Source of the DNA: Streptomyces sp. SID8352
Lineage (GTDB): Bacteria > Actinomycetota > Actinomycetes > Streptomycetales > Streptomycetaceae
Reading direction: 5' to 3'
Length of the DNA: 64,000 nt
NCBI RefSeq assembly: GCF_009862265.1
Contig: NZ_WWGX01000035.1
Coordinates: forward strand, 189,786-253,785
The notes below the pieces were generated by a model. That model had not been told where the DNA came from, searched no databases, and was given only the letters and a program-made list of their open reading frames with translations. How positions within the stretch are numbered: the stretch's first letter is position 1; every line of letters begins with the position of its first letter. The translations under genes and the position numbers were made by a program. Shown piece by piece: positions 31,714 to 63,863 of the stretch.

Positions 31714-33207
31714 ATGACGAACCAACTCCTCGACGGACAGTCCTACCTGGAAAGCCTGCGCGACGGCCGCACCGTCTACATCGACGGCGAGAAGGTCGAG
31801 GACGTCACCGAACACCCGGCGTTCCGCAACAGCGCGCGCTCCGTGGCCCGCCTCTACGACGCCCTCCACGATCCCGTGACACGTGACGCCCTGACCTTCG
31901 AGGACGACCAGGGCATCACCACCCACCGGTTCTTCGCGCCGTCCCGCACGGCCGACGAACTGCTGGGGGCACGGGACGCCATCGCCGCGTGGTCCCGGCT
32001 CAGCTACGGCTTCATGGGCCGCACGCCCGACTACAAGGCCGCCTTCATGGCGAGCCTGTCCAGCGACCCCGAGCTGTACGCCCCCTACGCGGACAACGCC
32101 CGCGCCTGGTACCGCCGTTACGCCTCCCAGGCACTGTTCCTCAACCACGTCCTCGTCAACCCGCCGGTCGACCGCAGCCGTCCGGTCCACGAGGTGGGCG
32201 ACGTGTTCGTGCACGTCGTCAGGGAGAACGACCGGGGCATCGTCGTCAGCGGCGCCAAGATGCTGGCGACCGGCTCGGCACTGACCCACGCCACGTTCGT
32301 CGCACAGAACAGCGCGGTCGGGCTCGAACCGGGCAAGGCCGAGGACTTCGCCCTGGCGTTCATCGCCCCCATGGACACCCCCGGCTGCGTCCTGCTCAGC
32401 CGCAGCTCCTACGAAGCCGCCGCCACCAGCCCGTTCGACCACCCGCTCTCCTCGCGCTTCGACGAGAACGACGCGGTCCTCGTCTTCCAGGAAGCACTCA
32501 TCCCCTGGGAGAACGTGCTGATCTACCGGGACGTGGAGAGGGCCAACTCCTTCTTCCCCCGCTCGGGGTTCATCAACCGCTCGCACCTCCAGGCGGGCAC
32601 CCGCTTCGCCGTCAAACTCGACCTGATGGCCGGGCTGTTCGCGCGGGCCGCCAAGTCGAACGGCACCGACGGGTTCCGCGGGGTGCAGGCGGCCATCGGC
32701 GAGGTGCTCACCCTGCGCAACACCGCCTGGGCCCTCTCCACGGTCATGGCGACGGACACCCAGCCCGGCCCCGGGGGAAGCGTCGTCCCCCGCATCGAAC
32801 ACGCGGGCTCCCTGCGCATGTTCACCTCCCAGGCATGGGAACGCGTCCGGGAACTCTTCGAAACGCACCTCGGGGGCGCCCCGCTGGTGGTGCCCTCCAG
32901 CCACCGCGACCTCGCCAACCCCGAACTCCGCCCGCTCATCGACCGCTACTACCGCGGCTCGGACTCCTCGGCCGAGAGCCGCATCAAACTCTTCAAGCTG
33001 GTCTGGGACACCATCGGCACGGGCTTCGGAGGACGCCACGACCTGTACGAGCGGGTCTACTCCGGCAACGCCGACCAGGTCAGGATCGACGCCCTGAACG
33101 CGGCCCGGCGCGGCGGACTCGCCGACCGCCTCGACGCCTTCGCCGAGGAGTGCATGGCCGACTACGACCTCGACGGCTGGGTCCGCGGCCCCTGGGCACA
33201 GCGGTGA
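31714..33207 (+). CDS. hpaB: 4-hydroxyphenylacetate 3-monooxygenase oxygenase component (HpaB family)
   Basis: A 497-residue FADH2-dependent aromatic hydroxylase of the HpaB/PvcC family, a cytoplasmic enzyme that hydroxylates phenols ortho to the hydroxyl group. Recognisable segments are the early SYLESLRDGRTVYIDGEKV, the central GAKMLATGSALTHATFVAQ region, and a C-terminal LFKLVWDTIGTGFGGRHDLYER. It requires reduced flavin from a separate reductase, which is the next gene, overlapping by four bases (GTGA). The substrate in vivo may be 4-hydroxyphenylacetate or another phenol. It would produce the catechol for the dioxygenase at 26547. Confidence 0.9.
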   Translation: MTNQLLDGQSYLESLRDGRTVYIDGEKVEDVTEHPAFRNSARSVARLYDALHDPVTRDALTFEDDQGITTHRFFAPSRTADELLGARDAIAAWSRLSYGFMGRTPDYKAAFMASLSSDPELYAPYADNARAWYRRYASQALFLNHVLVNPPVDRSRPVHEVGDVFVHVVRENDRGIVVSGAKMLATGSALTHATFVAQNSAVGLEPGKAEDFALAFIAPMDTPGCVLLSRSSYEAAATSPFDHPLSSRFDENDAVLVFQEALIPWENVLIYRDVERANSFFPRSGFINRSHLQAGTRFAVKLDLMAGLFARAAKSNGTDGFRGVQAAIGEVLTLRNTAWALSTVMATDTQPGPGGSVVPRIEHAGSLRMFTSQAWERVRELFETHLGGAPLVVPSSHRDLANPELRPLIDRYYRGSDSSAESRIKLFKLVWDTIGTGFGGRHDLYERVYSGNADQVRIDALNAARRGGLADRLDAFAEECMADYDLDGWVRGPWAQR

Positions 33208-46794: not shown

Positions 46795-46970
46795 TCGATG
46801 TCATCGCGCAGGCCTCGTCCGCGCCGGTGCCGGACAAGGCCCGGCGCCCGGGCGCCGCGCCCGGGACGGCACGCCCCCTTTGCGCAGCGCGGCCCCGCGA
46901 CTTGAACAGCACGGCCCCGCGACCGAGGAGCGGCGGCGCACCGGTCCGCCAGCCACGAATGGAAGTACTG

Positions 46971-49067
46971 ATGACGCATTCCGGACAGCTACGCGTAGGC
47001 GTGGACATCGGCGGCACCTTCACCGACATGGCGATCATGGACGACACCGGCATCGTCGCCGTCGGCAAGACCCTCACGACGCACGCCGAGCCGGCCGCGG
47101 GCGTGGAACGGCTGCTGGGGGAGACGCTCGTGGCCAACGCCCTCCCCGTCGACGCCGTCTCAACGGTCGTGCACGGCACCACACTGGTCACCAACGCCCT
47201 CATCGAGCGCCGCGGCGCCCGCACCGCGCTGCTCACCACCGAAGGCTTCCGCGACGTGGTCGAGATGGCCCGCGAACACCGCTACGAGCTCTACGACCTC
47301 AACCTCGACCTGCCCAGGCCACTGGTCCCGCGGTACCTGCGGTTCGGGATACCGGAACGCACGCTGGCCACCGGAGCGGTCGAACGGCCGCTGGACGAGG
47401 CCGTCGTCCGCCGCCTCGCCACGGAACTGCGGTCGGTCGGCATCGAGGCCGTCGGGGTCTGCCTGCTGCACAGCCACGTCAACCCCGCGCACGAGCAGCG
47501 CGTCGCCGACATCTTCCGCGACGTCGCCCCCACGGTGCGGGTGGCACTGTCCAGCGAGGTCAACCCCGAGATCCGCGAGTACGAACGCGCGACGACCACC
47601 CTGGCCAACGTCTACGTGCAGGACCTCGTCGAGACCTACCTGGCCGACCTGCGCAGCCGGCTGCGCAGGATGGGCATCGCACGGGACCCGCTCATCATGC
47701 TGTCCAACGGCGGCGTCGCCACCGTGGACGTCGCCGCCAGATTCCCCATCCGCATGCTCGAGTCGGGCCCCGCCGGAGGGGCCCTGGGCGCGGTGGCGTT
47801 CGGCCGCGTCGCCGGCCGCCCCCACCAGATGGCCTTCGACATGGGCGGTACGACGGCGAAGCTGTGCGTCATCGAGAACCACCGCCCCCTGGTCACCCAC
47901 ACCTTCGAGGTCGACCGCATGTACCGCATGCTGGCAGGCTCGGGACTGCCGGTGCGGGCCCCCGTCATCGACATGATCGAGATCGGGACCGGCGGTGGCT
48001 CGATCGCCCGGATCAGCAGCCTCGGCCTCGTCACGGTCGGTCCCGACTCGGCCGGCTCCGAACCGGGCCCGGTCGCCTTCGGACGCGGCGGCACCGGCTG
48101 CACGGTGACCGACGCGGACTTCGTCCTGGGCTACCTCGATCCCGCCTCCTTCAGCGGCGGGGACCTCGTCCTGGACGTCCCGGCGGCGGCCGCCGCGATC
48201 GACGAGCAGATCGCCGGCCCGCTCGGCCTGAGCGTCCCCGAGGCCGCCTGGGGCATCCACACCACCGCGAACGAGGCCATGGCCAGCGCGGCGCGCGTGC
48301 ACGCCATCGAACGCGGCCAGGACCCCGCCCGACTGCCGCTGTTCGTCTCCGGCGGCAACGGACCCCTGCACGGCCCGGGCGTGGCCAGGGCCCTGGGCGC
48401 CCCTCGCCTCGTCTCCCCGCCCGCCGCCGGCGTCCTGAGCACGCTGGGATTCCTCTCCGCGCCGATGTCCATCGACATCGTCCGCTCGCGCCACTACCCG
48501 CTCGCCGGGATCACCCTCGCCGACGTCGTGACGCTGTACGAGGAGATGGCCTCCGAAGGCGTCAGGATCTTGGAGGAGTCGGGCATCCCGCGCGGCGACA
48601 TCGTCTGCGAGCGCACCCTGGAGATGCGCTTCATCGGCCAGGGCAACGAGCTGGAGGTGCCGGCACCCGCCGCCGACGAGAACTGGCACAACGCCGTGGC
48701 CACCAACTTCACCCGGCTCTACCTCCAGCGCTTCGGCACCGCCGTCCCCCGCGGGGTCGCCCCCGAGATCATCAGCTGGCGGGCCGTCGTACGCGGCCCC
48801 GGCCCTGACGCGACACTTCGCCTGACCGGGGCCGGCCGCACCGGTGAGGCCCTCAAGGGACACCGCCGGGCGTACTTCCCCGCCGCGGGCGGCTACGTCG
48901 CCACTCCGGTCTACAGCCGGTACCACCTGCAGGCCGGCACCGTCCTCACGGGTCCGGCACTGATCGAGGAACGCGAGTCCACCCTCGTCGTCGGCCCGGG
49001 AGACCGGTGCACCGTGGCCGAGGACACCAGCATCGTCGTCGAGTTCGACCGGGAGCAGTTTCAGTGA
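46971..49067 (+). CDS. hyuA: Hydantoinase/oxoprolinase subunit A
   Basis: A 698-residue ATP-dependent N-methylhydantoinase / 5-oxoprolinase / acetone-carboxylase-type subunit. The ASKHA phosphate-binding loop GVDIGGTFTD is at the N-terminus. VHGTTLVTNALIER, LSNGGVATV, SGPAGGALGAV and FDMGGTTAKL follow, all hallmark segments of HyuA. It probably hydrolyses a cyclic amide with ATP together with subunit B. ATG 46971 has GGAAG 5 bp upstream; ATG 46959 and upstream codons are possible. It starts the plus-strand operon behind the GntR operators. The substrate could be a hydantoin, an N-methylhydantoin from creatinine, or an oxoproline. Confidence 0.9.
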   Translation: MTHSGQLRVGVDIGGTFTDMAIMDDTGIVAVGKTLTTHAEPAAGVERLLGETLVANALPVDAVSTVVHGTTLVTNALIERRGARTALLTTEGFRDVVEMAREHRYELYDLNLDLPRPLVPRYLRFGIPERTLATGAVERPLDEAVVRRLATELRSVGIEAVGVCLLHSHVNPAHEQRVADIFRDVAPTVRVALSSEVNPEIREYERATTTLANVYVQDLVETYLADLRSRLRRMGIARDPLIMLSNGGVATVDVAARFPIRMLESGPAGGALGAVAFGRVAGRPHQMAFDMGGTTAKLCVIENHRPLVTHTFEVDRMYRMLAGSGLPVRAPVIDMIEIGTGGGSIARISSLGLVTVGPDSAGSEPGPVAFGRGGTGCTVTDADFVLGYLDPASFSGGDLVLDVPAAAAAIDEQIAGPLGLSVPEAAWGIHTTANEAMASAARVHAIERGQDPARLPLFVSGGNGPLHGPGVARALGAPRLVSPPAAGVLSTLGFLSAPMSIDIVRSRHYPLAGITLADVVTLYEEMASEGVRILEESGIPRGDIVCERTLEMRFIGQGNELEVPAPAADENWHNAVATNFTRLYLQRFGTAVPRGVAPEIISWRAVVRGPGPDATLRLTGAGRTGEALKGHRRAYFPAAGGYVATPVYSRYHLQAGTVLTGPALIEERESTLVVGPGDRCTVAEDTSIVVEFDREQFQ

Positions 49068-50842
49068 GCGCATCGACCCCAGCAGCCGCGTCACCCACCG
49101 TCCCCGAGGACACCGCGGTCGACCCCATCGTCGTCGGCCTCGTCGCCAACCGCATGCACTCCCTGCTCAACGAACAGCAGGTGGCACTCATCCGCGTCGC
49201 GTTCAGTCCCGTCGTCCGCGAGTCGCTCGACCTCGCGTGCGCCGTGTTCGACTCGGCCGGGCGGATGATCGGCCAGTCCTCCGGAGGCACCCCCGGTCAC
49301 ATCAACGCGATGGCCACCGGCATGGAGCACATCGTGGCCGCCTTCCCCCAGGACACCCTCGCCGAGGGCGACGTACTGATCACCAACGATCCCTGGCTCA
49401 CCGCCGGACAGATCAACGACATCACCGTGGCCACCCCCGTCTACCGGGGCGGCACCCTCGTGGCCTGGTTCGCCAGTTGCTGCCACTCGCCCGACATCGG
49501 CGGCAGGATCCTGTCCGCGGCCGCGACGGAGGTCTTCGAGGAGGGCCTGCGCCTGCCGGTCATGCGGCTGCGCTCGGCCGCCGGCCCGGACGAGACCCTC
49601 GAACAGATCATCCGCGCCAACGTCCGCACCCCTGACGAGACCCTGGGCGACATCTATGCCCAGGTCGCCGCGAACGAGGTGGGCGCCCGCAGCCTGCTGG
49701 CGATGATGGACGAATTCGGCCTGCACACCATCGACCCGGTGGCCGACGAGATCATGCGCCGTTCGGAGGCGGCGCTGCGCACGGCCCTGAGTGAACTCCA
49801 GGACGGTGTGTACTGCGCCGAGGCGACCTCCGACGGCTTCGACGGGGAGGCCATCCACCTCAAGGCACGGGTGACCATCCGCGGTGACGCCATCGACATC
49901 GACTACGACGGCTCCTCGCCGCAGTCGCGCAACGGCGTCAACGTGGTGCTCAACTACACCCGCGCCTACACCTCCTTCGCCGTCAAGGCCGCCTTCGCCC
50001 CGGAAGTGCCGCACAACGCGGGATCGTTCCGGCCGGTCACCGTCAGGGCGCCGGCGGGATCCGTGCTCAACTGCGTGGACCCCGCCCCCGTCGCCTCCCG
50101 CCACCTGGTCGGGCACTTCCTGCCCAGTCTGCTCTTCGAAGCCCTGCGCCCCGCCGTCCCCGGCGGGCTCCAGGCCAGCAGCGCCGACGCCCTGTGGATG
50201 ACGGTGTGGCGCAGCGCCGAGCTCGGCGAGCCGTTCCCCTTCACACTGACCGCCTTCGCCGCCGGCGGCGCGGGGGCACGCCCGGCCAAGGACGGCCTGA
50301 ACACCACCAGTTTCCCCACCGGTGTGCGCGCCGCGCCGACCGAGGTCCTCGAGACACTCACCTCGCTGGTGCAGGTCCAGCGCGAGCTGCGGCAGGACTC
50401 CGGCGGTGCGGGGGAGTTCCGCGGCGGCCTCGGGCAGATCCTGCGGGTCCGCCGGCTCGGCGTGAACGCCTGGTCGGTCAACGCCAACATCGACCGCCTC
50501 ACCCACCCGGCCCCCGGGGCCCGGGGAGGTGCCGAGGGCACCCGGGGCGAGTTCGTCGACGACGCCACCGGCCGGCCGCTGCCGGCCAAGCGACTGGTGC
50601 GGCTGGCGCCCGGAACCACTGTCCGGCTGTCCTTCCCGGGCGGAGGCGGCTACGGGAACCCTGCCGACCGCGCCCCCGAGAAGGTCCTCGACGACGTCGT
50701 CAACGGATACGTCGGCATCGACGCGGCCCGCGCGGTCTACGGCGTGGACATCGAGTACACCGGCGACCCGGCCGCCCTGGTCAGGATGCCCGGAAGCTAT
50801 GTCGTCCGGGGCACCTCCCGCGGCCCGGCCACGGGCCCGTGA
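49064..50842 (+). CDS. hyuB: Hydantoinase/oxoprolinase subunit B
   Basis: A 592-residue partner of HyuA. It shows the family segments SPVVRESLDLACAVFD, GTPGHINAMATGMEHI, VLITNDPWLTAGQIND and the C-terminal FPGGGGYGNPADR. These enzymes work as A/B complexes; the B subunit carries metal ligands in the NDPW/H region. The GTG start at 49064 overlaps the hyuA stop (GTGA), so A and B are made in a fixed ratio. Length and domain order are normal. It is followed 275 bp later by the GntR gene with its own operators. Confidence 0.9.
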   Translation: MSASTPAAASPTVPEDTAVDPIVVGLVANRMHSLLNEQQVALIRVAFSPVVRESLDLACAVFDSAGRMIGQSSGGTPGHINAMATGMEHIVAAFPQDTLAEGDVLITNDPWLTAGQINDITVATPVYRGGTLVAWFASCCHSPDIGGRILSAAATEVFEEGLRLPVMRLRSAAGPDETLEQIIRANVRTPDETLGDIYAQVAANEVGARSLLAMMDEFGLHTIDPVADEIMRRSEAALRTALSELQDGVYCAEATSDGFDGEAIHLKARVTIRGDAIDIDYDGSSPQSRNGVNVVLNYTRAYTSFAVKAAFAPEVPHNAGSFRPVTVRAPAGSVLNCVDPAPVASRHLVGHFLPSLLFEALRPAVPGGLQASSADALWMTVWRSAELGEPFPFTLTAFAAGGAGARPAKDGLNTTSFPTGVRAAPTEVLETLTSLVQVQRELRQDSGGAGEFRGGLGQILRVRRLGVNAWSVNANIDRLTHPAPGARGGAEGTRGEFVDDATGRPLPAKRLVRLAPGTTVRLSFPGGGGYGNPADRAPEKVLDDVVNGYVGIDAARAVYGVDIEYTGDPAALVRMPGSYVVRGTSRGPATGP

Positions 50843-54749: not shown

Positions 54750-55715
54750 ATGTCGCGCATTTTTCGTGCAACGCCGGGAGACAACTCGTGGCGGCGTAGG
54801 CCCTCCCCGGTCACCTCGCCGGCCGACGACGGCCCCGGCATCGTCGCCGGCTACCTCGCGCCGCACCCGCCCCATTTGCTGTACGCGGAGAATCCGCCGC
54901 AGAACGAACCGCGGTCCCAGGGCGGATGGGAGGTCCTGCGCTGGGCCTACGAGAACGTCAGGAAGCGGATCAAGGAGCTTCGGCCGGACGTCATCGTGAT
55001 CCACGCCCCGCACTGGATCACGATGGTGGGCCACCACGTGAACTGCGTGCCCAACCCGCGCGGTGTCTCCGTGGAGCCGATCTTTCCCAACCTGCTGCGC
55101 TACCGCTACGACTTCCGGACGGACGTCGAACTGGCCGAGGCCATCGCGGACCAGGCGTCCGCCGACGGTCTGGTGACCCGCAAGCTGAAGACCGAGGGGG
55201 TACGCGTCGACTACGCCACCATCACCGCGCTCCACCTGCTGAACCCGGAATGGGACATCCCCGTGGTGTCGCTGTCCGCCAACAACAACCCCTACTACTA
55301 CTCGACCAGCTCGCTGGACCAGATGGAAGTGCTCGGGGAGGCCACCCGCAAGGCGATCGAGGCGACCGGGCGCCGGGCCGTCCTGGCGGGCTCGAACTCG
55401 CTGTCCCATCTGCACTGGGACCGGGAGCCCGAGCTGCCCGAGGACATGGCCGGTGAGCATGTCTACAGCAACCACCAGTACCAGTGGGACATGCGTCTGC
55501 TCGAACTCGTCCGGGCGGGCCGCACGCGCGACCTCAAGGGGTTCATCCCCGAGCACATCGAAGCCACCGAGTCGGAGACGAAGGCCGGCAGCCTGAGCTG
55601 GATGCTGTCCGCTCTCGGGTGGCCCGAGGGACTCGGAGAAGTGCTGGCCTACGGCACGGTCATCGGCACCGGCAACGCCGTCGCGGCCTGGGAGCCCGGA
55701 AGGGTGTCGGCATGA
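54750..55715 (+). CDS. 2-aminophenol 1,6-dioxygenase-type LigB oxygenase, catalytic (beta) subunit
   Basis: Type III (LigB superfamily) extradiol ring-cleavage oxygenase, 321 residues. It has the iron-ligand regions LAPHPPHLLY (His39/42) and VIHAPHW (His85/88), plus a Glu in EATESE. These are the catalytic marks of the AmnB/CnbC beta subunit, which opens 2-aminophenol to 2-aminomuconic 6-semialdehyde, or catechol. A 30-residue basic/disordered N-terminal extension precedes the conserved core. ATG 54750 or GTG 54726 could start it; neither has a clear ribosome site. Its partner follows in ATGA overlap. It heads an operon with microcompartment shell genes. Confidence 0.87.
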   Translation: MSRIFRATPGDNSWRRRPSPVTSPADDGPGIVAGYLAPHPPHLLYAENPPQNEPRSQGGWEVLRWAYENVRKRIKELRPDVIVIHAPHWITMVGHHVNCVPNPRGVSVEPIFPNLLRYRYDFRTDVELAEAIADQASADGLVTRKLKTEGVRVDYATITALHLLNPEWDIPVVSLSANNNPYYYSTSSLDQMEVLGEATRKAIEATGRRAVLAGSNSLSHLHWDREPELPEDMAGEHVYSNHQYQWDMRLLELVRAGRTRDLKGFIPEHIEATESETKAGSLSWMLSALGWPEGLGEVLAYGTVIGTGNAVAAWEPGRVSA

Positions 55716-56572
55716 ACCACTCACCGGGCTTCGCGGGTGCGGCCCTGGTCCCGGGGATGCCCCAGCTGCTCGCAGGGCACAGGGCGAGCAGCTGGGAGGC
55801 GCTCGCGGCGGCGACCACCGAGGTGGGCGGGATCATCGCGGACGAGGCGCCGGACGCGCTGCTGATCCTCTCGACCCAGTGGTTCACGGTACTGGGCCAC
55901 CAGTTCCAGATGGACCCACGCCCGCAGGGCGTGCACGTCGACGAGAACTGGTACGACTTCGACTACGGGACCCTGAGGTACTCGTTCCCCGTCGACGTCG
56001 AATTGACCGAGGAATGGGCGGCGGAAACCGAGCGGTCCGGATTCCAGGCCCGGCGTACCCGCTATGAGCACTTCCCCATCGATACGGGAACGATTGTCGC
56101 CCAGAATTTCCTCAACCCCGGCGGCAAAATACCTTCCGCTCTTGTCTCGTGCAATCTCTACGCCGCGGCCGACGACCTGGGGGAAATCGCCGCGGCAGGA
56201 GTACGGGCCGCGGAATCCTCCGGGAAACGGGTCTTCCTCGTGGCTGTGTCCGGGATGTCCAGCGGCTTGACACAGCGCTGGATGGCCCCTGAGGAGGACC
56301 GCGTCGAGAAACACGAGCACCAAGCGTGGGACCGCAGGATGCTCGATCTGCTGTCCGACGGTGACCTGGAACGGGCGCTGGCCACCCGTGAACGGTACGC
56401 GTCCGAGGCGCAGGCGGACAGCCAGTTCCGCGCCCTGGCCTTCCTGGCCGGGACCGGGCGGCTCACCTCCCCGGCGAGGGTTCTCGCCTACGGCCCCCTG
56501 TGGGGCACCGGGGGAGCTGTCGTCCACTGGCCGTCCTCATTCGTAGAAAACAATGTGAGAGGTGAATCGTGA
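55712..56572 (+). CDS. 2-aminophenol 1,6-dioxygenase-type LigB oxygenase, non-catalytic (alpha) subunit
   Basis: A 286-residue LigB-fold partner of the beta subunit. At the positions equivalent to the iron ligands it reads PGMPQLL (14-20) and STQWF (54-58) instead of the His-containing segments of beta, so it has no iron site. This is exactly the alpha/beta division of 2-aminophenol dioxygenases, where alpha stabilises or shapes the complex. ATG 55712 overlaps the beta stop (ATGA). Its last codons overlap the first shell-protein gene (GTGA), so dioxygenase and shell are translated together. Confidence 0.85.
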   Translation: MNHSPGFAGAALVPGMPQLLAGHRASSWEALAAATTEVGGIIADEAPDALLILSTQWFTVLGHQFQMDPRPQGVHVDENWYDFDYGTLRYSFPVDVELTEEWAAETERSGFQARRTRYEHFPIDTGTIVAQNFLNPGGKIPSALVSCNLYAAADDLGEIAAAGVRAAESSGKRVFLVAVSGMSSGLTQRWMAPEEDRVEKHEHQAWDRRMLDLLSDGDLERALATRERYASEAQADSQFRALAFLAGTGRLTSPARVLAYGPLWGTGGAVVHWPSSFVENNVRGES

Positions 56573-56859
56573 ACCACGCGGTGGGGTTTATCGAGGCAGA
56601 GGGGTTCGTGCCGGTCTTCGACGCGGTCGACGCCATGGTGAAAGCGACCTCGGTACAGGTGAACGGCACCGTCAGGCTCGGCGGCGGACTCGTCGCGGTC
56701 GCGGTCACGGGAGACCTGGCCACGGTGGAGGAAGCCGTGGAAGTGGGGGAGACGGCAGCGCGTGAGGTGTCGGGCGCGCGGGTACGTTCGATCATTTTCG
56801 CGAGCCCGGCCGCACCGGTGGCGGCGCTCGCTTTTCATCCGGAACTGCTGGACTCGTAG
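56569..56859 (+). CDS. Bacterial microcompartment hexameric shell protein (BMC-H)
   Basis: A 96-residue single BMC domain of normal length. It runs HAVGFIEAEGFVPVFDAVDAM, then VKATSVQVNGTVRLGGGL, then VAVTGDLATVEEAVEVG (read as separate short segments), the canonical order of a hexamer-forming shell protein. The pore loop region contains three glycines (RLGGGL), typical of an open polar pore. GTG 56569 overlaps the alpha-subunit stop by four bases. Microcompartment shells confine a toxic or unstable intermediate; here that is predicted to be the ring-cleavage semialdehyde. Confidence 0.92.
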   Translation: MNHAVGFIEAEGFVPVFDAVDAMVKATSVQVNGTVRLGGGLVAVAVTGDLATVEEAVEVGETAAREVSGARVRSIIFASPAAPVAALAFHPELLDS

Positions 56860-56870
56860 GAGGAAGTGCG

Positions 56871-57218
56871 ATGAACCAGTCTGGTCAGGCCGTCGGCCTG
56901 GTGGAGACGCGCGGAGCGGTCGCGTTGGCAGCGGGCATCGAGGCGATGCTGAAGACCGCGGACGTGGAAGTGGCCGGGATCGAACGGATCTCGTACGGGT
57001 TCTTCGCGGTCGCGGTACGAGGGCAGCTCGCGGCCGTACGGCAGGCGCTGGACTCGGGGTCCGCGGCGGTGGCGCAGTACGGGGAACTGCGGGCGGTGCG
57101 GATGTATCCGCGTCCTGACGCGGTGTCGCTGGGACTGCTGGAGAACGGTTCCCGTGCGGCACTGGCGACAGCGGCGCCCCAGGGGACACGGAGCCTGGAA
57201 AGCGGAGGTGCGGGGTGA
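56871..57218 (+). CDS. Bacterial microcompartment hexameric shell protein (BMC-H), second
   Basis: A 115-residue BMC domain (QAVGLVETRGAVALAAGIEAM, then LKTADVEVAG, then VAVRGQLAAVRQALDSG). It has a C-terminal tail of about 25 residues beyond the hexamer core (ATAAPQGTRSLESGGAG). The pore-lining position reads ERISYGFF rather than the usual glycine-rich loop, so the channel should be narrower and more aromatic than that of the first copy. AGGAGGAAG precedes ATG 56871. The two BMC-H proteins could tile one shell and set different permeabilities. Confidence 0.92.
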   Translation: MNQSGQAVGLVETRGAVALAAGIEAMLKTADVEVAGIERISYGFFAVAVRGQLAAVRQALDSGSAAVAQYGELRAVRMYPRPDAVSLGLLENGSRAALATAAPQGTRSLESGGAG

Positions 57219-57517
57219 TAGTCGGCCAGGTTGTCGGACGGGTGTGGAACGCCCGGGAGATCCCGTCGCTGGCGAAGCGGCGTCTGGTGATGGTCAAGCC
57301 CGCGGAGGGCGCGCTGGTCGTGGCCGTCGACCTGGTGGAGGTGGCCGAGGGGAACACGGTGCTGGTGACCGGTGACGACGTGGCCCGGAGGCTGGCCGGT
57401 GAGGGCGTCGACGCCGCGGTGGTCGCCCTGGTCGGCGGCGCCGACCACCACCATGCCCAGGGGGCGGCGGTGTCTCCCGGCGCGCCGGGGCATCCTGCGG
57501 ACCGGGCCCGGGAGTAG
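57215..57517 (+). CDS. Microcompartment pentameric vertex protein (BMC-P, EutN/CcmL)
   Basis: A 100-residue EutN/CcmL-type protein: VIVGQVVGRVWNAREIPSLAKRRL, then VVAVDLVEVAEGNTVLVTGDDVAR, then GVDAAVVALV (in short segments), the expected order of the vertex-capping pentamer. It has a short His-rich, Pro-rich C-terminal tail (DHHHAQGAA). GTG 57215 overlaps the previous stop (GTGA). Its presence makes a closed shell plausible. It is the only BMC-P here and no BMC-T (fused trimer) gene is present, giving a minimal shell gene set of two BMC-H and one BMC-P. Confidence 0.92.
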   Translation: MIVGQVVGRVWNAREIPSLAKRRLVMVKPAEGALVVAVDLVEVAEGNTVLVTGDDVARRLAGEGVDAAVVALVGGADHHHAQGAAVSPGAPGHPADRARE

Positions 57518-57519
57518 AC

Positions 57520-58995
57520 GTGGGTGCGAGCCGATCCTCACTCCGCAATTTCGTACGCGGCCGGTTCGTGGAGGGCATCTCGACGTTCGAGAAGGTCAGT
57601 CCGGTCGACGGCTCCGTGGTGGCGGTCGTCCACGAGGCCGGCTCCGGCCTCGTGGACGCCGCCGTACGCGCGGGGCGAGAGGCGCTGGAGGGCCCCTGGG
57701 GGCGCACCACCGTCGCCGAGCGGGTACGCCTGCTGCGCCGTGTCGCCGACACCGTCGAAGCCCGGTTCGATGATCTGGTGCGAGCCGAGGTGGCGGATAC
57801 CGGAAAACCCGTCCAGCTCGCCCGGGAACTGGATGTCACCCGTGCGGCCATGAACTTCCGCAGCTTCGCCGACATGGTCGCCTGCACCGGTCCGGAGGCC
57901 TTCGTCACCGAGTTCGGGAACGGCGGCAGGGCACTGAACTACACGGTGCCCAAACCCCTGGGGGTCGTCGGGGTCATCGTTCCGTGGAACCTTCCGCTCC
58001 TTCTGCTCACCTGGAAAGTGGCACCTGCCCTGGCCTGCGGAAACGCGGTGGTCGTCAAGCCTTCGGAAGAGACACCCTCATCGGCCGTGGTACTCGCCGA
58101 GATCATGGCGGAGGCCGGTGTCCCCGACGGCGTGTTCAACGTGGTCCACGGGTTCGGTGCCGGATCGGCCGGTGAGTTCCTGACCACCCACCCCGGGGTG
58201 GACGCCATCACGTTCACCGGGGAATCCCGCACCGGCTCGACGATCATGCGTGCCGTGGCCGACCATGTGCGTCCGGTCTCCTTCGAACTGGGCGGCAAGA
58301 ACGCCGCCGTCGTGTTCGCCGACGCCGATCTCGACCGGGCGGTCGAAGGACTGAGCCGTTCCATCTTCACCAACACGGGACAAGTCTGCCTGTGCACCGA
58401 ACGGGTCTACGTCGAGCGGCCGGTGTTCGACGAAGTCGTCTCCCGGCTCAGGGAGAAGGCGGCTTCGCTGCGTATGGGGTCGCCCTACGCGGCCGGGACG
58501 ACAACCGGACCGCTGATTTCCCTCGGGCACCGGGCGAAGGTGGCCTCCTTCCTGGAACGGGCCGTGCAGGAGGGCGCCGATGTCGTCGTCGGCGGTGGCA
58601 TCCCGGACCTGGGGCCGGGACTGGACGGCGGAGCGTGGATCGAGCCCACCCTGTGGACCGGACTGGACAACTCCTCCCGGGTGATGCGGGAGGAGGTCTT
58701 CGGCCCGGTCGCCGGGCTGGTGCCCTTCGACAGCGAGCCCGAAGCGGTCTCGCTGGCCAACGACACCGAGTACGGACTGGCCGCCGTGGTCTGGACCAGC
58801 GATCTGGAGCGTGGCCACCGGGTGGCCCAGCAGATGCGCGTGGGCATGTCATGGGTCAACGACTGGTACCTGCGCGACCTGCGATCGCCGTTCGGTGGCA
58901 CCGGCCTGTCCGGGATCGGCCGCGAAGGCGGAAGGCACTCACTGGATTTCTACAGTGAGCCCACCAACGTGTGCGTCCGCCTGGCCGGGCCCTGA
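57520..58995 (+). CDS. 2-aminomuconic / 2-hydroxymuconic semialdehyde dehydrogenase
   Basis: A 491-residue aldehyde dehydrogenase with Glu256 in SFELGGKN and catalytic Cys290 in NTGQVCLCTER. The segments YTVPKPLGVVG, TWKVAPALACGNAVV and the C-terminal RDLRSPFGGTGLSGIGREGG-HSLDFYSE stretch match the XylG/DmpC/AmnC group that oxidises ring-cleavage semialdehydes with NAD+. GTG 57520 starts 2 bp after the shell-protein stop. It is the obvious second enzyme inside the compartment: it consumes the reactive product of the dioxygenase to 2-aminomuconate or 2-hydroxymuconate. Cofactor NAD+ must be recycled inside or pass through the shell. Confidence 0.9.
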   Translation: MGASRSSLRNFVRGRFVEGISTFEKVSPVDGSVVAVVHEAGSGLVDAAVRAGREALEGPWGRTTVAERVRLLRRVADTVEARFDDLVRAEVADTGKPVQLARELDVTRAAMNFRSFADMVACTGPEAFVTEFGNGGRALNYTVPKPLGVVGVIVPWNLPLLLLTWKVAPALACGNAVVVKPSEETPSSAVVLAEIMAEAGVPDGVFNVVHGFGAGSAGEFLTTHPGVDAITFTGESRTGSTIMRAVADHVRPVSFELGGKNAAVVFADADLDRAVEGLSRSIFTNTGQVCLCTERVYVERPVFDEVVSRLREKAASLRMGSPYAAGTTTGPLISLGHRAKVASFLERAVQEGADVVVGGGIPDLGPGLDGGAWIEPTLWTGLDNSSRVMREEVFGPVAGLVPFDSEPEAVSLANDTEYGLAAVVWTSDLERGHRVAQQMRVGMSWVNDWYLRDLRSPFGGTGLSGIGREGGRHSLDFYSEPTNVCVRLAGP

Positions 58996-59093
58996 GCCCC
59001 GGCGGGACCCCGGACGTGAGAAGTCACCTGGAGCGGGCCGAGGCGTGTGCCGCGCCCACCCGCAGTGTGCCGATAGAGAGAGTGAGCGCAGGC

Positions 59094-61040
59094 ATGACCG
59101 AACCGCGACCCGTCAATCCCGTCACCGCTGGTGATGACGAGATCAGGGAGGCGCTGCTCGAAGCGGATCTGCCTGCCCTGCTGCCGGCCCTCGCCCATCT
59201 GACCGGGGATCCGGCGCTCATCGCGGACCGGTTTCGCCCGGCGCCTCCCTCACCGGTGGCGGACCTGCTCCCGCAGGGAGGAATGTCCCCCGAGAGCCAG
59301 GCCGCGGCCCGCGAACTCGCTCTCAGGGCCCTGCGACAGTACCGCGACGCGGGGTCGCCCCCGCCGGGGCCTCTCTCCCCGGAGGAACAGCGGACTCTCG
59401 TCCGGTTCGTCACGGGAGACCTTCCCGACGACTACCTGCCGCTCCTGAACCATGAACTCGGGCTCACCGGCGACGCCGGGGCGCCGGACTGGCACAAGGA
59501 CGAACTCGCGCCGGACAGGGAATTCTCGGTCGCGGTGATCGGGGCCGGGATGTCGGGAATCGCTGCCGCTCACCGCCTCGATCAGGCCGGAGTCCCCTAT
59601 GTCGTTCTCGAGAAGAGCGAGGACGTGGGCGGCACCTGGTGGGCGAACCGCTACCCCGGATGCCGGCTGGACACCAGCAATTTCGCCTACAGCTACTCCT
59701 TCGCGCAGAAGGCCGACTGGCAGAACCAGTTCTCTCCCCGGGACGAGATCTTCGACTACTTCGACGAGGTCGTCGACGAATTCGCGATCCGCCCACGCAT
59801 CCGCTTCGGGACCGAGGTCGTCTCCGCCCACTTCGATGAGGGGACGGCGGCCTGGGAGCTGACCTGCGAGTCCACTGACGGATCACGGTCGGTCGTCCGG
59901 GCCGATGCCGTCATCAGCGCGGTCGGCCAACTCAACCGGCCCAGCTACCCGGACATCCCCGGCCGGAGCCGGTTCCGGGGACTGGCGTTCCACACCGCGC
60001 AATGGCCGGACGGGGCCGACCTGGCAGGACTGCGGGTGGCCGTCATCGGGACCGGCGCCAGCGCCTACCAGGTGATCCCCGCCATCGCACCCGAGGTCGG
60101 GGAACTGCGGGTGTTCCAGCGCACCGCTCCCTGGATGATGCCCACCCCCTCCTATCACGACAAGCTTCCCGACGGCATGCGCTGGCTGCTGAGGCATGTG
60201 CCCAACTACCACCGCTGGTTCAGGTTCATGCAGTTCTGGAACAGCCTCGAGGCCAGACGCCAGTTCATGGTGATCGATCCCGACTGGACGTCCGAACGGT
60301 CCGTGTCCAGGCTGAACGAAGCGGTGCGCCGGGCACTCCACTCCCACCTGGAGGGCCAGTACGCCGACCGCCCCGACCTGCTGGCCCGGGTGGTCCCGGA
60401 CTATCCCCCGTACACGAAGCGGATGCTGCGTGACAACGGGGACTGGGCACGCACCCTGAAGTCAAAGCACGTCCACCTGATCACCGAGGGCGTCGAGGAG
60501 ATCACCGAGAAGGGCATCGTGACCGCCGACGGGGTCGAGCACGAGGTGGACGTGATCATCTACGGCACCGGCTTCCTCGCCGCGCACTTCCTGGAGCCCA
60601 TGAAGATCACCGGACGAGGCGGTGTCGATCTGCACGAGCAATGGGCGGGTGACCCGCGTGCCTACCTCGGGATCACGATCCCCGGGTTCCCCAACCTGTT
60701 CTGCCTCTACGGGCCGAACACCAATCTGGTCCTCAACGGAAGCATCATCCTCTTCTCCGAGGCGGGAGTTCACTACACGATCGGCTGCATCCAGGAGCTG
60801 ATGCGCCGCGGCGCGGGCTCCATGGAATGCCGTCAGGACGTTTTCGAGTCCTACAACTCCCGGATCGACGAGGCGAATCAGTCGATGGCCTGGAGCACGC
60901 CGGGGGTCAACAGCTGGTACAAGAACGCCTCCGGCCGGGTCACGCAGAACTGGCCGCTGCCGATCATCGAGTACTGGCGGCTGACAAGGCGGCCCGACCC
61001 CGCCGACTACCACTTTGGACAGGACGTCCCTGATGCCTGA
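59094..61040 (+). CDS. Baeyer-Villiger monooxygenase, 4-hydroxyacetophenone monooxygenase-like
   Basis: A 648-residue FAD enzyme. A 140-residue N-terminal extension (EADLPALLPALAHLTGD-like start, then ARELALRALRQYRDAG) precedes the FAD motif GAGMSG (150-155), the BVMO fingerprint FRGLAFHTAQWP (294-305), and the second Rossmann motif GTGASA (319-324). This extension and length are diagnostic of the HAPMO group, known to turn aryl methyl ketones into aryl acetates. ATG 59094 or GTG 59082 could start it. The gene has a 98-bp gap to the dehydrogenase and overlaps the hydrolase. It suggests that an acetophenone feeds the microcompartment. Confidence 0.88.
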   Translation: MTEPRPVNPVTAGDDEIREALLEADLPALLPALAHLTGDPALIADRFRPAPPSPVADLLPQGGMSPESQAAARELALRALRQYRDAGSPPPGPLSPEEQRTLVRFVTGDLPDDYLPLLNHELGLTGDAGAPDWHKDELAPDREFSVAVIGAGMSGIAAAHRLDQAGVPYVVLEKSEDVGGTWWANRYPGCRLDTSNFAYSYSFAQKADWQNQFSPRDEIFDYFDEVVDEFAIRPRIRFGTEVVSAHFDEGTAAWELTCESTDGSRSVVRADAVISAVGQLNRPSYPDIPGRSRFRGLAFHTAQWPDGADLAGLRVAVIGTGASAYQVIPAIAPEVGELRVFQRTAPWMMPTPSYHDKLPDGMRWLLRHVPNYHRWFRFMQFWNSLEARRQFMVIDPDWTSERSVSRLNEAVRRALHSHLEGQYADRPDLLARVVPDYPPYTKRMLRDNGDWARTLKSKHVHLITEGVEEITEKGIVTADGVEHEVDVIIYGTGFLAAHFLEPMKITGRGGVDLHEQWAGDPRAYLGITIPGFPNLFCLYGPNTNLVLNGSIILFSEAGVHYTIGCIQELMRRGAGSMECRQDVFESYNSRIDEANQSMAWSTPGVNSWYKNASGRVTQNWPLPIIEYWRLTRRPDPADYHFGQDVPDA

Positions 61041-61932
61041 CACCGATCCGCGCCCGCTCCCCGCCGACGGGCCGGCTGCCGCCGCGGGCCCGTGGCCCGT
61101 CACCGAACGACGAGTCAGGGCCGGGGGGTACACGACGCGCTACCTGGAAGCCGGTGACCCCGCCGCACCGGTGCTCCTGCTGCTGCACGACGGGGCGTGG
61201 GGCGGCAGCAGCGACGTCACCTGGGGAGCCATGATCCCCATGTTCGCGCAGCACTACCGCGTCCTCGCCCCGGACCTCCTGGGCTTCGGCGGAACCGACA
61301 AGGTGGCGTATTTCGACCGGCCCCCCCACGAGTTCCGTATCCGGCACCTGGCGGCCTTCCTGCGGGTCCTGGCCGTGGAAGAGCCGGTACACGTCATCGG
61401 CAACTCCTTCGGGGGGACGGTCGCGCTGCGGTCCCTGCCCGAGGCGGCGCTCCCGGCCCGGTCGGTGGTCAGCATCGCGGGCGGCGGAGGACCGTGGCGA
61501 ACGCCGTTGTCACGGCAACTGTCGCGCTGGGACGGGTCGCGGGCCGATATCGAACGCATACTCAGGCTGCTCGTGGACGACTTCCCCGGCTTTGCGGAAC
61601 AGGCCGCCGACCGGACCCGCTGGGCGAGGCAGCCCGGACACTTCCGCGCGATGGCCTCCATCGGCGTGGCGCTGCCCGAGCCGCTCAAGCAGCCCCGCCA
61701 GGACGCGTGGCCCGCCGCCCTCGCCGCGACCGATGTCCCCCTCCTCCTGGTCAAAGGCACGTCCGACAGTCTGCTGGAGCCCGGCTGGGCCGCGCACATC
61801 GCCGCCGTCGCACCCCGCTGCGAGGTGGTGGAACTCCCATGCAGACATGCGCCGAACATCGACATGCCTCATGTGCTCCTGCCCGTTCTCCTCGGCTTCC
61901 TCCGCCGGATCGACCGCGCGGCAGCGCGGTGA
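61033..61932 (+). CDS. Alpha/beta hydrolase, candidate aryl-ester hydrolase
   Basis: A 299-residue alpha/beta hydrolase with nucleophile Ser125 in GNSFGG, the oxyanion segment LLLHDGAWGG, an acid in KGTSDSLLEP and a His in the CRHAPNIDMPH region. It resembles both meta-cleavage product hydrolases and esterases. ATG 61033 overlaps the BVMO stop by 8 bp. After a Baeyer-Villiger step, an esterase would release acetate and the aminophenol or catechol (as HapD does after HAPMO in other bacteria). The choice between esterase and C-C hydrolase is inferred from context, not sequence. Confidence 0.85.
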   Translation: MPDTDPRPLPADGPAAAAGPWPVTERRVRAGGYTTRYLEAGDPAAPVLLLLHDGAWGGSSDVTWGAMIPMFAQHYRVLAPDLLGFGGTDKVAYFDRPPHEFRIRHLAAFLRVLAVEEPVHVIGNSFGGTVALRSLPEAALPARSVVSIAGGGGPWRTPLSRQLSRWDGSRADIERILRLLVDDFPGFAEQAADRTRWARQPGHFRAMASIGVALPEPLKQPRQDAWPAALAATDVPLLLVKGTSDSLLEPGWAAHIAAVAPRCEVVELPCRHAPNIDMPHVLLPVLLGFLRRIDRAAAR

Positions 61933-62061
61933 CCGTGTACGCCTCGGTGATCAGCCGGCCGACCGCTCGGTCAAAGACCCCCGGCCCTGTGCGGGACCGG
62001 TGTCCGGCCTTGCCGGACGGGTGTTGGACCGGCTGTGAGCCCCGATTCTAGGTTCGATTCC

Positions 62062-63318
62062 ATGGCAAAGGTATTTCATTCGGGCGTCGGTGACCGGACG
62101 CGCCCCCGCCGGCTGGCAAGCAGTCCTGCCGGCCCCCAGGACTGCTGCGACGACGGCCTGTCCCCGAAGCCGACGCTCCCCGCGGTCACCGGGCTCCGAA
62201 CGGACTTGACGCGCGGCCCCGGCACGGAGTCCGGGGAGCACCCGTCCCGGGACAGTGCCGCCCTTCGCGTCCTGACGCTGGGGACCGCGGCCGGGCCGGT
62301 CGTCTGGCGCGGGCGCACGGGAATCTCGACAGTGATCGTCGTCGAGGGCGTCAGCTACATGGTGGACGCGGGGATCGGTTCCGTCCAGCGGTACCGGCAG
62401 CTGGGTCTGCGCTGGGAGGACCTCCGCCACATCTTCATCACCCACATGCATTCCGACCACTACCTGGAGCTGCCTCACGCGCTCCTGGTGCCGTGGGAGT
62501 TGCCGGGGGAGTCCTACACCGACACGCTGTCGATCTGGGGACCCGGCGCGGTCCCCCTGGACCTGCCGCATCACGGCCCGCCGGGACAGCCCAGCTTCCC
62601 GAGACGTGTGGAGAACCTCGCCTCGCCGATCCCCGGTATCAGCGAGGTCGTCGACGGTATCCTCGGCTCGGCGTTCCAGGGCGACCTCAACATCCGGTAC
62701 GTCGATGAGGACCACGCCGACATCCATGAGCTCATCCGGACCCGGGACCTGCGAATTCCCAAGGAAGCCGGCGCGGACTACGCCACCCGCCGGTGCCCGC
62801 CCATGGACCCGTTCAAGGTCTTCGAGGACGACCGGGTGCGGGTGACCGCCACTCTGGTCGACCACCGCTTCTGCTTTCCCGCGTTCGCCTACCGGTTCGA
62901 CACCGAGCACGGCTCCGTGGTGTGCAGCGGCGACACCAGGCCGAACGACAACCTGCTGCGGCTCGCAGCCGACAGCGACCTCCTGCTGCACGAGTCGATC
63001 CACCTCGACCACCTGCTTTCCGAACTCAAGCCCGCGCCGGGCCTCATGGAGGGGTTGCTCGCTAACTGGGAGGAGCGCCACACCCTGCACTCCGCGGTGG
63101 GCAGGGTGGCCGAGTCCGCCGCGGTGTCCAACCTCGTCCTCAGCCACCTCGCTCCCGCGCACACCGATGTCGTCTCGGACGACGAATGGCTGGAGCACGT
63201 ACGGCGGGACTTCAGAGGCGGCAGCGCCGTCGGGCACGACCTGCACGAGATCCGGCTGGTGGAGCGGCCCGGCCGCCGGAAGGACCTCCAGATGCGGCCT
63301 GCGAAGGGCGTGCTGTGA
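62062..63318 (+). CDS. Metallo-beta-lactamase-fold hydrolase
   Basis: A 418-residue MBL-fold protein of the ribonuclease-Z-like/lactonase type. The metal motif THMHSDH gives His128, His130, Asp132, His133, later ligands are in SGDTRPND and LSHLAPAHTD. A 65-residue low-complexity N-terminal region precedes the fold. ATG 62062 or GTG 62035 is the start. It follows the hydrolase after 129 bp and is overlapped by the RidA gene. It could hydrolyse an ester, lactone, thioester or ring-cleavage product; the substrate is unknown. Confidence 0.8.
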   Translation: MAKVFHSGVGDRTRPRRLASSPAGPQDCCDDGLSPKPTLPAVTGLRTDLTRGPGTESGEHPSRDSAALRVLTLGTAAGPVVWRGRTGISTVIVVEGVSYMVDAGIGSVQRYRQLGLRWEDLRHIFITHMHSDHYLELPHALLVPWELPGESYTDTLSIWGPGAVPLDLPHHGPPGQPSFPRRVENLASPIPGISEVVDGILGSAFQGDLNIRYVDEDHADIHELIRTRDLRIPKEAGADYATRRCPPMDPFKVFEDDRVRVTATLVDHRFCFPAFAYRFDTEHGSVVCSGDTRPNDNLLRLAADSDLLLHESIHLDHLLSELKPAPGLMEGLLANWEERHTLHSAVGRVAESAAVSNLVLSHLAPAHTDVVSDDEWLEHVRRDFRGGSAVGHDLHEIRLVERPGRRKDLQMRPAKGVL

Positions 63319-63863
63319 CGATGAGCGGGGCAAAGCGGACGGATGGTCTCGTGGGGGCCCACGATGCCTGTGGAACCTCCGGTCACCGGGGCGGAGACGG
63401 GCGGTTGGAAACCGTCTCCCCCGAAGAACGTCTCCTACGGCTCGGCCTGGTGCTTCCGCCGCTGCGGCCGAAGGCCGGAAACTACCTCGGATATGTGCGC
63501 CACGGCGACCTGCTGTTCCTCTCCGGACAGGGCGCCGACGGGCATGTCGGGCATGTCGGCGCCGCCCGCTCCATCGAGGAGGGGCGCCTCGCCGCACGTG
63601 ACTGCATGCTGAATCTGTTGGCGCAGACACGCGACGCCCTCGGGTCGCTGGATTCCGTGGGCCGGATCATCAAGATCCTGGGATTCGTCGCCTGTGCCCC
63701 CGAGTTCCGCGACGCACCGAAAGTCATCGACGGTGCCTCCGATCTCCTGCACGAGCTGTTCGGTCCCGAGCGCGGTTCGCATGCCCGTTCCGCCATCGGG
63801 GCGTCCGCGCTCCCGCTGGGCTTCACGGTCGAGATCGAGATGGTCCTGTCCATAGAGGACTGA
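63315..63863 (+). CDS. RidA/YjgF family protein, 2-aminomuconate-deaminase-like
   Basis: A 182-residue RidA domain with a 40-residue N-terminal extension. The conserved substrate Arg is at about 158 (ARSAIGASALP) and Glu at about 173 (FTVEIEM), which retain or hydrolyse imine substrates. 2-aminomuconate deaminases of 2-aminophenol degraders belong to this family, so it may remove the nitrogen as ammonia from 2-aminomuconate. Its presence suggests that the substrate is aminophenol rather than catechol. GTG 63315 overlaps the MBL stop (GTGA) and has GAAGGG 7 bp upstream; ATG 63321 is an alternative. Last gene of the operon. Confidence 0.82.
   Translation: MTMSGAKRTDGLVGAHDACGTSGHRGGDGRLETVSPEERLLRLGLVLPPLRPKAGNYLGYVRHGDLLFLSGQGADGHVGHVGAARSIEEGRLAARDCMLNLLAQTRDALGSLDSVGRIIKILGFVACAPEFRDAPKVIDGASDLLHELFGPERGSHARSAIGASALPLGFTVEIEMVLSIED

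Follow-up and report, generated by a model that had tools for sequence, protein, structure and literature searches.

What feeds 2-aminophenol into the ARO type of bacterial microcompartment (BMC), and which enzymes accompany it into the shell? The question is raised by a run of ten genes at 54750-63863 of the window, by which we mean the whole 64,000-nucleotide stretch of DNA analysed here (contig positions 189786-253785 of a 7.8-Mb Streptomyces-like genome). The ARO type was catalogued in 2021 (PMC8217296), and the ARO BMC of Micromonospora rosaria was described by Doron, Sutter and Kerfeld in 2023, who showed both enzyme steps in vitro and argued for, rather than showed, encapsulation (PMC10470539). 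According to the main text of the latter paper, HyuAB is the only candidate named for the upper pathway at ARO loci, the ARO dioxygenase cleaves catechol too, and an N-terminal extension of its beta subunit, past which the solved non-BMC dioxygenases begin to align, is suggested as an encapsulation signal that, unlike the usual encapsulation peptides, is not predicted to be helical. The same text calls the precursor of 2-aminophenol unknown and states that 2-aminomuconic semialdehyde becomes picolinate without the dehydrogenase; the original prediction for this DNA, which had cited the paper and proposed that a shell prevents this cyclisation, agrees with it on these points. An ARO locus is listed there in Streptomyces sp. 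AmelKG-F2B, so that data set may already include the present locus or one closely related to it. The original prediction also took the gene content after the dehydrogenase to be new, in line with which the main text of that paper contains neither monooxygenase nor metallo, nor any of the words phosphoenolpyruvate, dikinase, peptidase and Amycolatopsis. We find that the organelle is a known one and that the new part is its gene content, a third ARO subtype; the main clue, absent from the original prediction, is a dioxygenase-like N-terminal peptide (the tag) on a metallo-β-lactamase (MBL)-fold hydrolase.

As judged from its sequence, the region is an ARO-type BMC locus, and its membership is solid, because the dioxygenase match, its place in the tree and the make-up of the shell all identify it as such. 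Residues 1-316 of the dioxygenase beta subunit, extension included, align to residues 1-320 of 7txy_B, the ARO dioxygenase of M. rosaria that has been crystallised (E 2.5e-154), whereas the alignment to the non-BMC dioxygenase 3vsg starts only at residue 31, after the extension. In a tree of the alpha and beta subunits, all 31 rows from loci with shell genes group in a single clade (100/100), apart from six outgroup rows, and the window dioxygenase is sister to that of Amycolatopsis jejuensis (100/99). Among the best 80 of 237 loci that encode relatives of the beta subunit, both BMC-H genes are present in 30, and the other 50 gave no match to a shell protein at the cut-off of E 1e-8. The shell set of the window consists of two distinct BMC-H proteins and one BMC-P protein; the lipstickred homologue matches M. 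rosaria H1 at 68%, above the 55% taken as the threshold, and the BMC-H1 and BMC-H2 roles were assigned from the P(R/K)PH motif. This lateral-contact motif of cerulean-type BMC-H proteins reads PRPD in the window (57108-57119), PRPS in A. jejuensis and PKPH in M. rosaria. An IclR-type regulator adjoins the locus beyond the window end, as expected of ARO loci. The ARO assignment of the original prediction, which had looked to the dioxygenase phylogeny and to a comparison of the shell proteins with known ARO loci for a check, is thus borne out by both.

The tag links the dioxygenase to the MBL. The window MBL begins with MAKVFHSGVGDRTRPRR (frame start 62062) and that of A. jejuensis with MPKVFHAPVGDRTRTRR, and dioxygenase beta subunits begin with MSRIFRATPGDNSWRRR (window), MSSVFKVPVGDRTWQRR (Microtetraspora glauca) and MSNVFRVPVGDRTWQRR (Nocardioides soli); the putative entry signal of this subtype follows the pattern MxxVF[RH]xxxGDxxxxRR. 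A profile of 8 positions (2-9), built only from 20 dioxygenase beta N-termini, was run on 16,525 candidate starts in 31 sources (30 ARO loci and the stretch L084). It ranked 28 dioxygenases at the top, followed by two M24-family proteins and two MBLs, with scores of 16.2 and 13.1 for the M24 proteins of M. glauca (L006) and N. soli (L007), 16.0 for the A. jejuensis MBL and 11.2 for the window MBL; the highest other score was 10.6, both in the 31 sources and among 18,980 starts of 50 shell-less loci. Since the margin on these 8 positions is narrow, the case for the tag rests on a longer match. When 16 residues were compared with dioxygenase N-termini over 36,731 starts, at least 9 identities were found in seven, namely five unlisted dioxygenases and the two MBLs (10 and 9), and unrelated starts reached up to 8; the L007 M24 protein had 8 and that of L006 was not among the best 15 listed. 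Across the whole genome, a short start pattern (ATG only) occurred at 13 sites against 6 in a reversed control, and only two of the 13, those of the dioxygenase and the MBL, continue with GD...RR. On the profile, the remaining starts of the window all stayed below 8, so the type I Baeyer-Villiger monooxygenase (BVMO), the alpha/beta hydrolase, the dehydrogenase and the Rid protein of the locus appear to be untagged.

The relatives of the MBL suggest an origin for the hydrolase. The two ARO MBLs are identical at 16 of their first 22 residues and at 10 of the next 43, and the domain that follows is conserved. Upstream of the domain we read 17 MBL homologues that lie elsewhere than at ARO loci, 16 found in a search of 394 genomes of the class and one on a plasmid: none has the tag, 11, including a paralogue in the same genome, show a twin-arginine motif and then a hydrophobic stretch, and the remaining six have neither. 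We take these stretches to be probable twin-arginine translocation (Tat) export signals. The ARO MBLs therefore look like members of a largely exported family in which the export signal has been replaced by the ARO peptide. Viewed as an encapsulation peptide, the tag is common to two unrelated proteins, dioxygenase beta and MBL, and absent from all 17 non-ARO homologues of the latter; we regard it as a putative encapsulation signal, and the MBL is likely to be packaged. A structure model of the MBL from a two-row alignment had a mean predicted local distance difference test (pLDDT) score of 28.

A further observation concerns the M24 proteins (creatinase/ectoine-hydrolase-like) of M. glauca (L006:3640-5043) and N. 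soli (L007:3620-5041), whose gene lies between those of AmnD and HyuB and whose ARO-type N-terminal peptides read MASVFRVPLG and MTRVFRVPHG, respectively; they are perhaps a third ARO cargo. Their best NCBIfam matches are ectoine (ring) hydrolases, far below the cut-off, and tagged hydrolases may thus be a theme.

To place the locus among its relatives, 32 ARO loci were compared (30 from the GTDB collection, L004-L033, together with L135 and the window), each within its captured stretch of up to about 10 kb either side. The HyuAB pair was found in 11 and phosphoenolpyruvate (PEP)-synthase-like genes in 17 (L004, L009, L018-L024, L026-L031, L033 and L135), and BVMO occurs with MBL in two, the window and A. 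jejuensis (L005); in L008 and L025 the contig ends too early for the upper module to be judged. The ATP-binding (PPDK_N) and PEP-utiliser (about 608 aa) halves and a HAD-family gene are present in 16 of the 17 PEP-type loci, and L009, where the contig ends, has the PEP-utiliser only. These genes presumably resemble aryl phosphate synthases such as CreHI with their phosphatase, and the PEP-type loci may hold a second upper pathway via aryl phosphate. On the dioxygenase tree the HyuAB label needs two changes and the PEP label five, of which the starred branches force two and three, which suggests repeated exchange or loss of modules.

Compared with the M. rosaria system, the window is without ARO-type HyuAB and has instead a BVMO, an alpha/beta hydrolase and the tagged MBL, together with an MFS transporter and a Rid protein of another subfamily. 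The BVMO (70%), the MBL (82% across the domain, and bearing the tag too), the MFS transporter (70%), the IclR regulator (70%), the Rid protein (75%) and the dehydrogenase (76%) all recur at the ARO locus of A. jejuensis in another gene order: shell, dehydrogenase, BVMO and MBL genes lie on one strand and those of the dioxygenase and Rid on the other, with the MBL adjoining BMC-H1 and the BVMO adjoining the dehydrogenase. Searches for further loci of the subtype matched one of 295 sampled congeners by the dioxygenase and one of 392 by the full-length MBL, in both cases the genome itself; the MBL domain matched in 14 of 394 genomes of the class, at no more than 47% identity apart from the window's own gene, and the dioxygenase in two of 80 genomes of the A. 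jejuensis genus, the second being of the PEP type. A HyuAB pair in the window (46965-50842) was considered as the ARO upper pathway and rejected: it matches HyuAB of L006 and L007 at 30-38% and those match each other at 76-82%, genes for GntR, a lyase and a methyltransferase lie between it and the operon, and the A. jejuensis ARO locus gave no HyuAB match. The pair is hydantoinase/acetophenone-carboxylase-like, lies 4 kb upstream of the operon and is followed by the GntR regulator. Among the compared sequences, contigs binned as Klebsiella pneumoniae and Streptomyces griseus (L035, L067) carry shell-less aminophenol dioxygenases at 55-58% to that of the window and are possibly mis-binned, and the semialdehyde dehydrogenase of Micromonospora sp. 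NBS 11-29 (L032:12692-14027) was matched in three pieces, which suggests frameshifts or sequencing error.

The added enzymes give clues to the chemistry. Type I BVMOs carry an FxGxxxHxxxW(P/D) fingerprint and two GxGxx(G/A) nucleotide-binding motifs; the window enzyme has FRGLAFHTAQWP, GAGMSG and GTGASA. Its best PDB matches are cyclohexanone and phenylacetone monooxygenases, whose coverage excludes its long N-terminal extension, a feature that we take to be typical of 4-hydroxyacetophenone monooxygenase. Among 191 plasmid records with a BVMO homologue, four were examined, and an alpha/beta hydrolase is annotated beside the BVMO homologue in those of Rhodococcus rhodochrous and R. pyridinivorans and one gene away in that of Sphingobium. 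The hydrolase of R. pyridinivorans (L088) is a homologue (37%) of the window alpha/beta hydrolase, another homologue (46%) of which adjoins a second A. jejuensis BVMO (44%, L132), and no ARO dioxygenase homologue was matched in these stretches; such pairs favour ketone-to-ester-to-phenol chemistry. An annotated tautomerase lies near the pair of L088. The arrangement resembles the BVMO-esterase pairs of aryl/alkyl ketone degradation, presumably of the 4-hydroxyacetophenone type, in combining a type I BVMO that has a long N-terminal extension with an alpha/beta hydrolase beside or near it, and unlike the window those pairs have no link to a BMC or to a matched 2-aminophenol dioxygenase in the stretches examined. 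Among the literature matches listed, none reported a BVMO route from 2-aminoacetophenone. In the MBL the HxHxDH motif and the later His and Asp residues are intact, and its family-model matches are of the RNase Z, GntH and arylsulfatase types, with no lactonase model among those listed.

The genes for a lower pathway are divided between the locus and a satellite set. Past the window end, on the same strand, lie genes for a protein related to 2-oxo-3-hexenedioate decarboxylases/hydratases, for an IclR regulator that most resembles PcaR/PcaU types (L084:3691-4530) and for an MFS transporter closest to the aromatic acid/H+ symporters, each scoring below the cut-off of the NCBIfam model concerned; the ARO locus thus seems to extend beyond the window. 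The satellite set on contig C99 comprises an acetaldehyde dehydrogenase (73%), a 4-hydroxy-2-oxovalerate aldolase (74%), a second decarboxylase/hydratase (39%) and an IclR-type match (28%). Where an AmnD deaminase or a tautomerase would be expected, the locus has a Rid protein of another subfamily that keeps an Arg aligned with the presumably catalytic one of AmnD; its relatives occur at ARO loci without an AmnD match in the captured stretch, mostly of the PEP type. No tautomerase was found at the locus, and the two tautomerase-family genes of the genome are on contig C54. The non-BMC cnb/amn system of Comamonas testosteroni pCNB is similar in its dioxygenase beta (54%), its semialdehyde dehydrogenase (60%), its hydratase/decarboxylase homologues and a RidA-family protein adjoining the dioxygenase, and differs in that the 18.9 kb examined gave no match to a shell protein, a BVMO or an MBL; 3vsg, which aligns only after the beta extension, is the solved enzyme related to this pathway. 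If the Rid protein is a deaminase, the locus and the satellite set could carry 2-aminophenol to central metabolites.

Taken together, we propose an ARO organelle of a third subtype, with a core pathway, a BVMO/hydrolase upper pathway and the MBL as cargo, to which we assign a probability of about one half. By homology with M. rosaria, the shell of two BMC-H and one BMC-P proteins would enclose the 2-aminophenol 1,6-dioxygenase and the semialdehyde dehydrogenase, so that the unstable ring-opened aldehyde would be oxidised before it cyclises to picolinate; the Rid-family deaminase, the decarboxylase/hydratase and the satellite set (hydratase/decarboxylase, aldolase and acetaldehyde dehydrogenase) could finish the pathway. 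Upstream, the MFS transporter, of the aromatic-acid type, perhaps imports an o-aminophenyl ketone, for example 2'-aminoacetophenone or one with a kynurenine-like side chain, which the BVMO would convert to an o-aminophenyl ester; 2-aminophenol would be released from the ester by the cytosolic alpha/beta hydrolase, by the MBL hydrolase inside the lumen, or by both. The MBL would enter as cargo by the dioxygenase beta peptide that it bears where many of its relatives have a Tat-like export signal, and 2-aminophenol would then be freed beside the enzyme that destroys it. The identity of the precursor is a hypothesis. More tentatively, and with rather less confidence, ARO BMCs in general may be modular, with a conserved ring-cleaving core and shell, a transferable N-terminal signal and at least three upper pathways, the MBL, of a largely Tat-exported family, having swapped an export signal for an entry signal so as to free the toxic 2-aminophenol from the BVMO product inside the shell.

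Several points weigh against this proposal. The case for MBL encapsulation comes from sequence only, and on the 8-position profile the window MBL (11.2) stands narrowly above the best background (10.6). Just two loci of the BVMO/MBL subtype were found; at the captured A. jejuensis locus no alpha/beta hydrolase was found, the best match in that genome (46%) lying on another contig, and in the R. antarcticus plasmid, which has the closest BVMO homologue, no adjoining alpha/beta hydrolase is annotated (its gene table is incomplete). The nearest solved relatives of the alpha/beta hydrolase (PDB) are C-C hydrolases of meta-cleavage products, and the MBL family leaves the substrate unfixed, the nearest solved relative being named an arylsulfatase. 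Furthermore, the Rid protein is not of the AmnD type seen at many ARO loci, with the aligned Arg retained, and gaps of 98 and 129 bases precede the BVMO and the MBL genes, so that a single transcript is not certain.

Among other explanations, the most serious, though doubtful, keeps the MBL as cargo and has it open the plant allelochemical 2-benzoxazolinone or another cyclic or N-/O-conjugate directly to 2-aminophenol, with the BVMO serving some other feed. Benzoxazolinone is opened toward aminophenols by MBL-superfamily/lactonase enzymes, namely Fusarium Mbl1 (PMC4726666) and BxdA of maize-root bacteria (PMC11297187), which are likewise hydrolases upstream of an aminophenol; they are likened to the window MBL by description, and its family-model matches are of other kinds, with no lactonase model listed. 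The second tagged enzyme, the M24 protein of L006 and L007, with its far-below-cut-off resemblance to ectoine (ring) hydrolases, and the retention of the MBL at the captured A. jejuensis locus, which is without the alpha/beta hydrolase, would fit such a ring opening, but the BVMO is kept at both loci and would be left without a role. Alternatively, the shared peptide may be an expression element at the start of the gene or a tether to another protein rather than a targeting signal. Several tagged genes have a -10-like box (TAGGTT, TAGCGT) just 5' of the ATG, as in leaderless mRNAs. The published prediction that the beta extension is not helical (PMC10470539) also agrees with this idea, which we nevertheless consider unlikely, given that it is the amino-acid sequences that are alike, in enzymes of three unrelated families that are all encoded at ARO loci, and that solved non-BMC dioxygenases align only past the extension in our comparison and in that paper.

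Less likely still is a catechol subtype, in which the BVMO would form catechol from an o-hydroxyaryl ketone, and the alpha/beta hydrolase would be a DmpD-like meta-cleavage-product hydrolase. The solved relatives of that hydrolase, the cleavage of catechol by the ARO dioxygenase (PMC10470539) and the absence of an AmnD-type match at the locus would suit it, whereas the presence of a Rid protein, the lack of a tautomerase at the locus (the two of the genome being on another contig) and the pairing of BVMO and alpha/beta hydrolase homologues without a matched ARO dioxygenase homologue in L132 and L088 argue against it. Least probable, in our view, is that this is a plain ARO BMC with the BVMO, the alpha/beta hydrolase and the MBL as passenger neighbours: the gaps before the BVMO and MBL genes and the co-occurrence of the two in just two of the 32 captured ARO stretches are compatible with such a reading, but the same gene set is found in rearranged order in A. 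jejuensis and the MBL shares the dioxygenase tag.

The features of the locus are collected in Table 1. All ten genes named in the original prediction were found on the one strand as open frames, each complete with start and stop codons, and the family models agree with the families it gave (for the semialdehyde dehydrogenase, 789.9 bits in TIGR03216 against a cut-off of 693). Its description of the junctions as mostly 4-base overlaps was too strong, as this is true of three of nine, the others being an 8-base overlap and gaps of 11, 2, 98, 129 and 2 bases. No sigma-70-type promoter site was found in a scan that is uninformative in such GC-rich DNA. By eye, a TAGGTT/TAGCGT-like -10 box lies about 7-8 bases 5' of the ATG of several dioxygenase-beta, MBL and M24 genes (62049-62054 in the window). 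The GC content of the ARO region is 0.69, against 0.71-0.76 in the rest of the window (4-kb steps); together with its rarity in the genus (one of 295 genomes, itself), this fits a horizontal gain of the locus. Elsewhere in the window, a second BVMO match (38%) at about 3.2 kb on the - strand and an HpaB-like monooxygenase (31714-33207, +; below cut-off) are possible further genes of aromatic or ketone catabolism.

Table 1. Features of the ARO-type locus, in window coordinates.
Feature	Coordinates	Strand	Length and basis
Dioxygenase beta (catalytic) subunit, ARO 2-aminophenol 1,6-dioxygenase	54750..55715	+	321 aa; LigB Pfam, 7txy_B match, tree
ARO-specific N-terminal extension of dioxygenase beta	about 54750-54830	+	MSRIFRATPGDNSWRRR...
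Dioxygenase alpha subunit	55712..56572	+	286 aa; LigB Pfam; 4-base overlap with beta
BMC-H1 shell hexamer, lipstickred-like	56569..56859	+	96 aa; PF00936; 68% to M. rosaria counterpart
BMC-H2 shell hexamer, cerulean-like	56871..57218	+	115 aa; PF00936; alignment, PRPD against PKPH in M. rosaria
BMC-P shell pentamer	57215..57517	+	100 aa; PF03319
2-aminomuconic/2-hydroxymuconic semialdehyde dehydrogenase	57520..58995	+	491 aa; TIGR03216; catalytic Cys context GQVC
Type I BVMO	59094..61040	+	648 aa; N-terminal extension of ~140 residues; FRGLAFHTAQWP fingerprint; 70% to A. jejuensis ARO-locus BVMO
Alpha/beta hydrolase	61033..61932	+	299 aa; GNSFGG nucleophile motif; esterase or meta-cleavage-product hydrolase
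MBL-fold hydrolase	62062..63318	+	418 aa; tag 62062-62127, variable linker, MBL domain from about 62257
Rid-family protein	63321..63863	+	180 aa; Arg (RSAIG) aligns with AmnD-type Rid Arg; candidate 2-aminomuconate deaminase

The subtype offers candidate enzymes of the upper pathway both in the named strain A. jejuensis NRRL B-24427 and in the present Streptomyces-like genome, and a second, unrelated protein with the dioxygenase-type peptide makes the idea of a packaging signal directly testable. If the peptide is such a signal, it would lend itself readily to the loading of enzymes into a shell that is both small and simple. If our proposal is true, a class of precursor, o-aminophenyl ketones or their esters, would be named for at least these organisms, and the swap of an export signal for an organelle signal would be one way in which BMCs recruit new cargo.

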